Origin: Cymodocea nodosa
Taxonomy: Eukaryota > Streptophyta > Magnoliopsida > Alismatales > Cymodoceaceae
Assembly: GCA_036874045.1 (NCBI GenBank)
Contig: CM072345.1
Span: 7,961,501 to 8,025,500, forward strand
Direction: 5' to 3'
DNA length: 64,000 bases
Shown: positions 34,401 through 40,400 of the stretch, piece after piece
Layout of the letters: each line of letters begins with the position of its first letter
How positions within the stretch are numbered: the first letter of the stretch is position 1
The notes under the pieces: model-generated
The model's database searches: none
The model's input: the letters and a program-made list of their open reading frames with translations, nothing else
Told to the model about the DNA's origin: nothing
Position numbers and translations under genes: made by a program

Positions 34401-37400
34401 GCCCTATGAGTCATCAGGTAGAGATGGCTTGAGATATCCCTTTCTAATGAAAACTTAGTGATATTAAGCTTATGAATTATACTCATCTACTCTCTACTGT
34501 AGGTCCAAAGATATCATTCTTCAACTTTAACACTTTCAGATAGCAATGAAACTGAGATGGACACTGTTTAGAATGAAATTGTACATAATATTAGTGGTAA
34601 ATAAATGATTAATTATATAATATTTAACTTATCATATAAGAATTAAATCATTATATCATAATTATACAAGTACACACTTTAACTAAAGAATATGTATAAT
34701 TTCAAAGAATTAGTGATTAATTAGACTTATAAAAGTACACTTAAGCTAACAAGACAGACACTTTGCAATCAGCTCACTTTATAGCATCTTACACTATGGA
34801 GGGTGTTTGATGAAGAGGAATTGGAAACTCTACGATAATCTTTTTATATATATATTAAGAAAAACATACAAGAAGGTATATATACAAGATGAATAGGAAT
34901 AGAAATCCCTACACATAAATGGATCACTAAATGAATCTTGGAGAGACATAAATGGATTCATAGCAAACAACTAACACTCCCCCTCAAGCTGAAGTATATA
35001 TATCAAATATCTTCAGCTTGTTACATAAATTTTCAAAGACTCTTATACCCAAACTCTTAGTGAGAATATCAGCAACTTGGTCCTCGGATCGAGTAAAAAA
35101 AGTAGATATGATTCCCTTCAACACATTGTTTTGAATGAAGTGACAATCAACCTCCACATGTTTTGTTCTCTCATGAAAACTAAGATTGTTAGCAATGTGT
35201 ATAGCGGCTTAATTATTACAATACATGAGCATAGGAACATTCACATCTACGCCAAGTTTGAACAGAAGCAGCTTTAGCCATAGTAACTCAAAAGTAGTGT
35301 TGAACATGCTACGATATTCAACTTCAGCACTGGATTTTGAAACCATATTCTGTTTCTTGCTGTGCCAGGTGACTAAGTTTCCACTAAAAAATGTTAAGTA
35401 TCCAAAAGTAGATTTTCTATTTGTTTTGTCTCCTGCATACCCTACATCCAAATAGCCTTCTACATTCAAATGTCCATGTTTTTCATACAAAAGACCTCTC
35501 CTTGGTGCTTGCTTGATGTAGCCTAACACTCGAGTTACTCCCTACTAGTGAACTTCTCTTAGAGCATGCATAAACTAGTTGAGAAGATTAACAATGTAAC
35601 TAATATCTAGTCTGGTAACAGTCAAGTAGATAAGTTTAGGTGCATTTACACCTACTACCAAGCACTGACTCCTATAAGAACTCTGGAGTTAACTGTGTTT
35701 GGGCGGGAGCAAAATCAGGATGGGTGACCACTTGGGAAGTTCTCGTGCAGTGCCTATGGGCAGTTGTGTTGGCTCTGCTCAAGCATTGGCAAGTTGTAGC
35801 TGTGTCCACCACTTACCAAAGTGGGCTTAACAAGGCCCCCTACAAGCTTTCGTCTTCTTGGATACTCCTGATGTTTGAGTATCCATTGAGACTCACATGT
35901 TATCACCTCTATGGATACTTCTGGTGTATACCAAGCTGTTTGAGTGTCGATGAAGGTTCACCTTCTATCACCTCTAAAGATACTCCTGGTGTTCACCAGG
36001 CTGTTTGAGTGTCTAAAGGAGGACCTTTGAAAAAAAAAAAAAAAAAAAGTAGATAAGTTTTCCCAGAAACCTCCTATACCTCCCTGGATCACTGTATAAG
36101 GGGGATTCCTCACTCCAAAAAGAATGTTCTTGCTCTATTAGAGTGTTCTCTGGCTTGTACCCCTCAAGTCTTATTTCTTTTAGAAGATCTAGGACATACT
36201 TCCTTTGAGACAATGTTAATCATCCCTTGGAATATGCATATTCAATGCCTAAAAAATACCTCAATGTTCTCATATCTTTGGTGGCAAAATGCTTCCAAAG
36301 AAACCTTTTGGTTTCTTCAATGCTTTGAGTATTGCTACCAATCAACATATCATCAACATAACCTGCAAGGATGACAACACCTTAGGAAGTATATTTCACA
36401 AAAACAGAATGATCAACACAACAACTATCAAAGCCATCACTGCACATTACACTCTTGAAAGTCTCAAACCATGCCTTGAGACTCTGTTTAAGGTCATAGA
36501 TAGCCTTGTGAAGATTACAAACCTATGTCTCCTATTGAGCAACATATCCAAGAGATTGTTTCATAAAGACGTGCTCATTGAGATCACCATAAACAAATAC
36601 ATTCTTGACATCAAGTTGAACTAATTGCCAAGAATGGTTGACTACCATAGATAAAAGAACTTGAATGGAGTCAAGGCAAGTCACAAGAGAAAAAGTCTCT
36701 AAGTAGTCAACTCCATACTCTTAAGAGAAGGGGCCACAAGTCGAGCCTTGTACCGATCTACAGTTCTGTCAGGGTGACGTTTGATAATAAAAACTCATTA
36801 ACAAGTGACCACAGTCATCCCTTCAAGACGAGGAACAAGATCCTAAGTGCCACGAGTGAAAAAAGCATGCACCTCTTCATCCATTGCTGCCTTCTAGTGC
36901 AAAATCTACAAAGTCTCATGATGATCCTTGGGTAAAGATTCGATAGAAATGCAAAGGCAAAGTTGCGAAAATTAAGATTAAGGTTGGCATAAGAAATTGT
37001 GTCAAATAAAGGATGTTGTGTACAATGAGGGGTGGACTCATTGACAGGAGTAGAGGTTGAGTCTAAAGCCATAGCTGGAGGTCGTAGTCTGCGACTATAT
37101 ACCCTCAATGGTGGTGGATTTAGGCCATCTTGTACAACATGTTCCTCAACTAGTGGCACATGAGAAGTGAGAGGGACATCACAAAATTCTGCGACTATAT
37201 ACCCTCAATGGTGGTGGATTTGGGCCATCTTGTACAACATGTTCCTCAACTAGTGGCACATGAGAAGTGAGAGGGACATCACAAAATTTAACGGGATCAA
37301 GAACAGAGGAAGCAAGTTGATCAAAAGAAGAGGAATCAGAAACATCATGGTCAAAGTAAGAAGAATACTCAAAGAATGTAACATCCATGGAGGTATAGTG

Positions 37401-40400
37401 CCTCGAAGTTGAATGATAATAGAGTCAATACCTATTTTGAGTATTCGAGTAGCCAACAAAAATGCATTTAAGAGCTCAAGGAGAGAGCTTATCAAAACCT
37501 AGTGTAAGATCTTGAACAAAGGTAAGACACCCAAAGACCCTAAGGGAGATAGAAAAAAGGTCTTGATTTGGACAAAGATGGTGAAGAGGAATATCTCCAC
37601 CTAAAGGAGTTGAAGACATACGATTGATTAAATATACAATAGTAAGAATAACATCAGCCCAAAAGTACCAAGGAACTTTTGTTTGTAGCATGAGAGTACA
37701 AACCACATCGAAAATATGACGATACTTACACTTAGCGACCCCATTCTACTAAGACGTATGAGAACAAGTGGTTTGATGAATTATTCTAAGACTAGAGCAA
37801 ATAATCTGAAAATCAGTTTGCATAAACTCAAGAGCATTATTAGTACACACAATTTTAAGAAACAAAGAAAATTGATTTTATATTTTAGCTAAAAAAATTT
37901 TGAATACATCAGGTATACTCTAACAATCTTTAAGTAAATAAACCCATGAGACTCAAGAATAATCATCGACAAAAACAACATAATACTTGTGACCTTGATG
38001 GGAAACAACTGGATTAAGGCCCCAAACATCATAATGCACAACAACAAACAAGTTTGTAGATGACACTAAACGTAACTGCTTGAAGGTAACATGAGTATGC
38101 TTCCTAAGTTAACAGGATTCACATTCAAAGGGAGAAAAAGAAGACCAAGGTAAAGCTTGACAAAGTTTTTGATACAATAAATGACCAAATCGATAGTGCC
38201 AAAGGAGAGAAGGGTCTATATCCAACAGGCAAGCACCAAACCACGAAGAGCATAATCATGAACCATCAAATAAGCTCCAGAAGTATCAAATCTATGGCCC
38301 AAACTAATCCTTCGTCTTGTGTGTAAGTCTTGAAAGGTAACATGGAAAGGAAAAAAATAGATTAAGCATTGCAATTGTGTGGTAATGGTACTAATAGATA
38401 AAAGATTAAAAGAGAAATCAGAGGCATAAAGAACATCGTTCAACTATATCTTTGAAAAGACTTGGATCTCCCCCTTATCAATTACAGGGCATAAACAACC
38501 ATCAACAATGGTAATAGATGACTTGTCAAGAAGTATGGAAAGTCTATCAAATAAGCTAGAAGTACCTGACACGTGGGATGAAATGTCAGAATCTATAATC
38601 CAAGGATTATCACTATTGGCTATCAAAGTAGTAGCAATACCTAGGATAGGAGATGAAGTATGAGCACTCATAGCTATGGGTCTAAACGCTTGTGCTTGAA
38701 TAAGACAAGCATAACCAACCTGTAAAATGGTGATAGTGTTGTTAGTGGCAAAAGTAACACTATCAACAGCTCCAGAAGTCTCAATACTAAGATTAGCAAA
38801 TTGAGACTTCAAATGGGGAAACTTCTGCCAACATTTTTTAGATCTATGACCAATCTTTCCACACCACTGGCATTTAGGACGTTGGCAATCTCTATAGTAG
38901 TCCTGACCTTTTCCACACCCATCAAAAGAGACAAGAGCCAATTGTTCATGCATAAGGGCTTTTGTAACTATAGGTGACATGGCAGTGATGCATAGGACAC
39001 AAGCAAAAACTTCATCTAGGTCAAGAGTATGCTCAACTCCTAATATAGGCCCCCAAATCTAAGCTGAAACATCAAGATGGAGGTTGACAAGGTAAGTGGC
39101 AATGGCAAGCTCCTTGCAATACCTTCAAAAGGTGGCAATATCAGCTATAGGTGGTTGATAGACATCAAGTTCATTAATTAGTCCATGGAGAATAGTATAA
39201 TGTTCTTGGTAGGTTTTGTCGCCTTGTTGAAGTTTAAAAAGTTGTTCATAAATAGAGAAGACTTTGGAAACATTCTTCTCATATCCATAGATACGACGAA
39301 GATGATCCCAAATGGCTTTGGCAAGTCTTAACATAGTGACACCACGTACAACAGTAGGTTCCATACTTGAAAACATCCAAGAAGTAATGGTGGTGTCATC
39401 TGCATATCAGTCCTTATAGCTCTCATCCTTAACATCCAATGGAAACAGTGTGAGATGATGCTCCTAATGGTGTGTGATGATGATGGTCTCAAAACTACAA
39501 GCCCAATGAATGTAATTAGGTCCATTGAGTCTTTTAGATACTCTAGGTAAGGACCAAATGAGATCTCCACAGGACAAACTGGAAGACATGCTGACAGATG
39601 TCCGCGTAGAACAGTAGCACCTACAGGCAATGTCCATGTGTTGTACAAGCTAACAAGCAATGGTGCAAAACAGACAAGCCAACAAACCTCCAAATCTTCC
39701 ATGCAAGTAAAGCTTTAGGCAGTGTCTGCACAAATGGGTGTTGAGTTGACAAATATCAATGGAACCTTCGACTGAAGAAGCGATAGAACCTCTAACTGTA
39801 GACAAGGAACCAATGGTTGCAAATGGGGAACCACTAGAAACCTACAACAAGGAGGGAGATGACAGACCTCACCTCCTCTCCTTCAGAACCAATGGTCACA
39901 CTATACAAAGTGGTTAGCATTCGATGACGAACAACGCCAACCACAGAGAAGGAAGGAGCTTGACCAACGACTGCTAGAGAGGAACAACCTAGTCAAACCC
40001 ACTCACAGAGTGGAGGATGAGCCCTATGGTGGCAGAACTTGGTTCTAATACCATGTTTGATGAAGAGGAATTAGAAAATCTACAATAATCTTTTTATATA
40101 TATATTAAGAAAAACATACAAGAAGGTATGTATACAAGATGAATAGGAATAGAAATCCCTACACATAAATGGATCCTAGAGAGACATAAATAGATCCATA
40201 GCAAACAACTAACAGAGGGTTATAGAGGGAGTATGCCAAACATATGTGGATACCCTTGCCCCCCATAAAGGTGGGATTTTTCAACAAGCTTGTTATAATA
40301 CAAGAGGCGCCTCTGACGGAACAGACACTAGAGGGGTTGGCAGTTGGCAAGCAAGTGTACTTTTTGTGGAGATGTTGAAACACTTATTTTTTAAGTGCAG

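Follow-up and report, generated by a model that had tools for sequence, protein, structure and literature searches.

How does a sequence that begins as 5S ribosomal RNA come to lie, with a poly(A) run and a TSD, inside a Copia element of Cymodocea nodosa? The initial annotation of the window, by which we mean the whole stretch of 64,000 nucleotides that was analysed, had offered two answers: the insert would belong either to a plant family of 5S-headed SINEs or to RNA of Cassandra mobilised by a LINE. Our results support the former and lend no support to the latter. We hold with high confidence that the element belongs to a family of plant SINEs that have a head derived from 5S rRNA and move by L1-style retroposition.

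The insert is a complete retroposon of 409 bp (window 35638-36046), and its parts are listed in Table 1. The anatomy initially described, namely a full-length 5S rRNA head, an unrelated body with internal repeats, a poly(A) run and an exact 14-bp TSD, was confirmed in each of these parts. The head (35638-35756) matches positions 1-120 of the Rfam model RF00001 with 38.2 bits (E 0.00026, search of the 64 kb window), a score barely above the gathering cut-off of 38, and it is the sole match in the window at that threshold. The body is not 5S-like, and its two 65-bp repeats (35872-35936 and 35937-36001) are 77% alike. An A run at 36030-36048 closes the copy, and the TSD is exact on both flanks. 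A repeat search of the window found no direct repeats around the SINE that could be an LTR pair. A TTTT stop is absent from the window copy and from 20 of the 26 copies aligned below; the missing stop is weak evidence, as shuffling the window copy likewise yields sequences without TTTT in 10% of cases.

Table 1. Positions in the window of the 5S-headed SINE, its TSD and the Copia element that holds it.
Feature	Position	Strand	Size or basis
TSD, 5' copy, AAGTAGATAAGTTT	35624..35637	+	14 bp
5S-rRNA-derived head; C-box AGGATGGGTG intact	35638..35758	+	RF00001 match and comparison with host 5S units
Body, first non-repetitive part	35759..35871	+	Copy alignment
Body, two 65-bp internal repeats	35872..36001	+	Repeat search, 77%
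Body, 3' end ahead of the tail	36002..36029	+	Similar across the 26-copy alignment
Poly(A) tail	36030..36046	+	Two more A are common to tail and TSD
TSD, 3' copy, AAGTAGATAAGTTT	36047..36060	+	14 bp
Decayed Copia element, recipient of the SINE and not a part of it	34804..40175	-	Pfam matches, LTR pieces, empty paralogue sites

The element that received the SINE is recognisable as Copia by Pfam matches in three of the six frame pieces searched (RVT_2, E 1.1e-11; Pol_BBD; Retrotran_gag_2) and by two LTR pieces (34804-34925 and 40054-40175) that are 97% alike. The site is empty in all 11 Copia paralogues examined (L103-L113, 71-74% alike, which are those with loci among the 39 other Copia matches scored): their flanks are contiguous and contain no SINE match. 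The RVT_2 match and these empty sites bear out the insertion inside another element. It had also been claimed that the Copia reading frame becomes continuous once the insert is removed; this stands for homology across the site and fails for an intact gene, as the frame is also broken by further stops. A tandem duplication of 100 bp, 99% identical, is present in the Copia coding region at 37088-37287 and represents a recent duplication or an assembly fault.

The 5S head was compared with the 5S genes of the host. Units of the host 5S array score about 100-111 bits on RF00001, far from the 38.2 bits of the SINE head. The internal control region of the head is better kept than its 5' part: against five of these units, 38-39 of 49 positions are identical in the former and 28-29 of 48 in the latter, and 15-17 of 21 agree at the 3' end. 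The A-box and IE were judged solely within the comparison of the internal control region, and the units all belong to a single array on contig C1 (from 47 scored of 10,838 candidates), which may not be the expressed one. The C-box of the SINE is the canonical sequence, the same as printed in a passage of PMC10853983. In the alignment to RF00001, several 5S base pairs of the head are no longer standard and helices are unpaired; because of these helices and of a score just over the cut-off, the head is no working 5S rRNA. Retention of the promoter with loss of the ribosomal RNA is what one expects of a retroposon that uses its promoter.

The 5S array itself, whose repeating unit measures about 508 bp, extends over 9.26-11.27 Mb of contig C1 (L081-L086). 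Its commonest C-box, AAGATGGGTG, differs from the canonical one of the SINE, and the array units are possibly decayed. The 5S spacer was rejected as a source of the SINE body: a comparison of the body with six loci of the array, including their spacers, gave no match longer than 13 bases (E 5.9), which is at chance level.

According to the second origin proposed initially, the LTR transcript of Cassandra, whose TSD is 5 bp, would have been polyadenylated and then pasted by a LINE. Cassandra and the SINE both bear a 5S promoter, and Cassandra is the 5S-bearing mobile element described for plants in passages of PMC10886601 and PMC10853983. The anatomy speaks against it, since the latter source describes the 5S-like region of Cassandra as never located at the LTR termini, whereas the SINE opens with its 5S sequence and is not surrounded by an LTR pair. 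Patterns running from box C to the PBS over 70-180 bp were found in the host genome at zero places and at one place, the latter not 5S-like by eye; they are weak tests for an absence of Cassandra, because an assumed PBS motif was matched exactly, with no mismatch allowed. We therefore rejected a Cassandra origin on anatomy and consider it highly improbable.

The host genome searched comprises 374.6 Mb in 28 contigs. With the window element as query, 46 matches were obtained from the 40 scored of 931 candidates, and 44 of them, counting the window copy, are long and 87-100% identical. Places that fit a 30-base pattern of the head with at most three mismatches number 355 (181 forward and 174 reverse), against none for the reversed control; an exact 21-base head pattern had no relatives in viral and bacterial/archaeal contigs. 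We aligned 26 copies (19 interior and 7 telomeric), which are the best matches to the window copy among the 46. They have common ends and A tails. The match begins at AGGTGC or as many as three bases farther on, and in most copies it terminates in GGAC(C/A)TTTG followed by an A run. Exact TSDs of 13-17 bp flank 13 of the 19 interior copies, the window copy being one of the 19, and none of the 342 mismatched flank pairings of these copies reaches at least 10 bp. The remaining six are without an exact TSD of at least 10 bp; when mismatches are allowed, candidates of 11-17 bp appear in L012, L019 and L027, a doubtful one in L020, and none in L015 and L025.

The host genome thus contains copies with a 5S head, poly(A) and variable TSDs, as the initial annotation had suggested looking for. 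The elements are short and non-coding, have a Pol III-type RNA head and occur in many dispersed copies, which makes the family a SINE family. Median identity is 94.8% among the 19 interior copies and 92.2% among the 7 telomeric ones; no date is drawn from this divergence because the copies were picked for likeness to the window copy. In a long subtype, the first part of the body is lengthened by a module of some 140-180 nt (L035, 1510-2040; L047, 950-1480; L051, 1963-2515). By eye, the tails of L015, L021, L022 and L024 consist of an A-run, the word CATTT and another A-run, and those of L010 and L026 have other short words between the A-runs, as if the 3' end had been partly copied twice. Around position 1324 of L015, also by eye, a SINE lacks its first bases and the sequence upstream resembles an inverted SINE piece, like an L1-type 5' inversion.

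The insertion sites of the interior copies share a motif. At the 13 exact TSDs, positions -2 and -1 are pyrimidines and position +1 is A, each in 13 of 13 cases, the leading A of the TSD being partly ambiguous with the poly(A) tail. We read this motif as an L1-type nick; a poly(A) tail combined with a TT|AA-type nick is the pattern of a SINE mobilised by an L1-type LINE.

The same family is present in telomeric repeats. A telomeric unit at most 8 bases ahead of the exact SINE head gave 46 pattern matches that correspond to 38 distinct copies, all of which lie within 100 kb of contig ends (17 ends) and in a single orientation with respect to the telomere. Among the 100 best head places (each with 0 or 1 mismatch, out of 355), 25 are within 100 kb of contig ends, where 1.3% would be expected, and 24 of these 25 have the telomeric orientation; the other 75 are more than 100 kb away, so SINE insertion is not restricted to telomeric repeats. 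The telomeric copies form head-to-tail arrays of LINE, telomeric tract and 5S SINE in one orientation (L011, L033, L038, L047, L053 and L056, at the ends of C1, C7, C14, C15 and C16), with the order LINE-A(n)-CCCTAAA..-SINE-A(n)-CCCTAAA..-next element. In 15 of 17 loci, the telomeric tract and the SINE follow what looks like the 3' end of a LINE, closed by an A run (by eye).

Tails were scored in the 26 telomeric copies with loci, out of 38; L036 and L047 have no scorable tail, and in 23 of the remaining 24 the poly(A) runs into CC(C)TAA-type sequence, L043 being the exception. The register of the 5' junction varies. Flanking repeats of 11-14 bp that are exact in register were found in 12 of 23 telomeric copies (leaving out L036 and L047, without a tail, and L043, with a non-telomeric one), and since mismatched pairs reach at least 8 bp in 37% of cases (permutation p = 0.07 for the count and 0.25 for the mean), these TSDs are not distinguishable from the repeat register.

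Between two telomeric SINEs on C1 (L011) lies a LINE with DUF4283, exo/endonuclease, RVT_1 and zf-RVT domains in several frame pieces, a layout that we take to be that of plant L1 elements. Further copies are present on C2 (96.4% alike over 4,990 aligned bases) and C20 (91.3% over 5,244 aligned bases), and the window contains no match to this LINE. Of 48 exact LINE 3' ends, 30 are no more than 100 kb from a contig end and 18 are interior; 29 of the 30 have the telomeric orientation. Chromosome ends are thus strongly enriched in the LINE, which is nevertheless not confined to them. No telomeric repeats follow the interior 3' ends in any of the 17 fetched of these 18 (by eye). Among three 3' ends near contig ends, that of L080 runs into telomeric repeats, that of L071 does not, and the A-rich tail of L072 passes straight into the start of another LINE.

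The shared sites and orientation suggest that this L1-type LINE mobilises the SINE. When the SINE was compared with eight LINE 3' ends, a check proposed initially, no shared sequence was found and poly(A) alone was in common (best match 15 bases, E 0.16); the LINE is consequently a candidate partner, and the absence of a common 3' sequence fits a relaxed, poly(A)-based recruitment. The LINE was rejected as a source of the SINE body or of its 3' end on the same comparison. Most of eight LINE 3' ends that were folded, for example those of L033 and L044, have a small hairpin (CTATCC...GGATAG) a few bases ahead of the poly(A); it is absent from L034, and the SINE has no such sequence.

We propose that RNA polymerase III would transcribe the SINE from its internal 5S promoter and that the poly(A)-tailed RNA would be picked up by the machinery of an L1-clade LINE. 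The endonuclease would cut at (Y)TT|RR in the bottom strand and free a T-rich 3' end, from which reverse transcription would be primed on the poly(A) tail; second-strand cleavage would produce TSDs mostly of 13-17 bp. Read on the top strand, a single preference of the endonuclease, YY|AAR, could account for the insertion in the window as well as for those elsewhere in the interior and at the telomeric CCCT|AAA. Because the CCCTAAA unit contains the nick site CCCT|AAA, which fits the interior motif, the SINE and the L1-type LINE may also enter telomeric tracts, and telomere invasion would be possible through the ordinary preference of the endonuclease. The telomeric inserts would face one way because only the G-rich strand offers TTT for priming. 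We regard nicking as the probable route into the telomeres.

Two other routes could have produced the telomeric copies. Priming might have occurred on the 3' end of the chromosome itself, as in HeT-A, followed by synthesis of new telomere, and this would agree with the single orientation of all 38 copies, with the poly(A) joined to the telomeric register in 23 of 24, with telomeric TSDs that do not rise above the level of mismatched pairs, and with the right ends of contigs C2 and C20, which fall inside LINE sequence. The same motif, however, accounts for interior copies with clear TSDs, and the left end of C17 is plain CCCTAAA over all 3 kb fetched. Register-exact flanks of 11-14 bp that include a variant unit in L041, L042 and L046 also point away from end priming, although mismatched pairs often show them too. 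We consider priming on chromosome ends unlikely as the origin of the telomeric copies. As for the other contig ends, the left end of C5 starts in SINE-like sequence (by eye, among 14 left ends viewed), six of the 14 begin with N, and the first 100 bases of the left ends of C4 and C24-C28 contain no LINE match.

Alternatively, retroposition into telomeres may be rare, and the arrays may owe their spread chiefly to recombination between chromosome ends that followed a few founding insertions. Some telomeric copies are indeed very alike (up to 98.2% among the 7 compared), and the same element order recurs in the arrays. Junction registers and spacers nevertheless differ among copies, short and long SINE subtypes are mixed within an array (L047, L051), and the median identity of the telomeric copies is not above that of the interior ones. 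As the main process, recombination seems to us rather doubtful, if less so than priming on chromosome ends, and it may add to the array pattern that we attribute chiefly to nicking within telomeric tracts.

The 5S-headed, L1-style SINE family of a land plant and the telomere-invading assemblage of LINE and SINE are real; their class of mechanism is ordinary, while the head, the host and the place are unusual. Movement in the L1 style would in itself be nothing new, because the 5S SINEs of fruit bats are L1-dependent. The arrays constitute a land-plant case of retroelements that invade telomeres of the telomerase type; no other land-plant case of a retroelement in telomeres appeared by title among the matches listed, in mainly open-access literature without preprints. 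From the fit of CCCT|AAA to the nick motif one would expect comparable arrays in other plants whose L1 elements are active, and if such arrays are rare, more than a nick site is needed. Many plants have both L1 elements and telomeres of TTTAGGG, and since no report of such arrays was found in that literature in spite of this, the match to the nick site alone may be insufficient.

The SINE also bears on the origin of Cassandra. Kojima 2024 (PMC10886601) relays in one passage the speculation that the insertion of a SINE3 into an LTR gave rise to Cassandra. Maiwald et al. 2024 (PMC10853983) favour an association of an LTR element with 5S arrays, and for SINEs that have acquired genic promoters they refer to animals. 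The finding of a 5S SINE in a plant shows that a donor of the kind postulated for the 5S of Cassandra can exist there, and this origin becomes testable. No paper on a plant 5S SINE was found by title in the literature searched, mainly open-access and without preprints. A passage of PMC3095306 counts 5S-homologous sequences among SINE3 "including plants", with the Cassandra paper as its plant reference, and the AnnoSINE description (PMC8825457) names 5S as a possible SINE head, with no plant example in the passage concerned. A more speculative reading, which we think unlikely to hold in full, is that the chromosome ends of a land plant are partly built, and perhaps buffered, by repeated oriented additions of an L1 LINE and a 5S-headed SINE into telomere ends or primed from them, and that the SINE exemplifies the plant SINE3 postulated as the source of the 5S promoter of Cassandra.

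Among known systems, the closest in design is SINE3 (zebrafish, Tribolium, HaSE3 of Helicoverpa, PxSE4/5 of Plutella), with a 5S head that contains the internal control region, a non-coding body and TSDs; PxSE4/5 are given a length of 389 bp, similar to the 409 bp of our SINE. In this comparison by description, the differences are a land plant as host, a poly(A) tail and an L1-type nick. In the sections of Kojima 2020 (PMC7245038) that deal with them, SINE3 elements are placed in vertebrates and some insects, with CR1 as the partner of the vertebrate ones, the I clade as that of SINE3-1_TC and RTE as that of HaSE3. Repeated independent births of 5S-headed SINEs are described in passages of PMC10886601 and PMC7245038, and convergence with animal SINE3, instead of common descent, is our default reading. 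The 5S rRNA-related SINEs of Aspergillus fumigatus, likened here from their description in part of PMC5063351, are likewise 5S SINEs outside animals, but from a fungus. The Cassandra TRIM resembles our SINE as plant mobile DNA with a 5S promoter, and differs in the LTRs, methionine PBS, PPT and mid-LTR 5S described in PMC10853983, all of which are absent from the SINE.

At the telomeres, the LINE recalls TRAS and SART of insects, which also reside in telomeric repeats, each with a fixed orientation. These are R1-type in the account of PMC10088271, whereas the LINE described here is plant-L1-like, has 18 of its 48 ends in the interior and is accompanied by a SINE. Zepp1 of Chlorella, compared by description, is the Viridiplantae example in the relevant passage of the same source, which mentions no SINE with it; it shares with our LINE the association with telomeres and the green lineage, but belongs to an alga.
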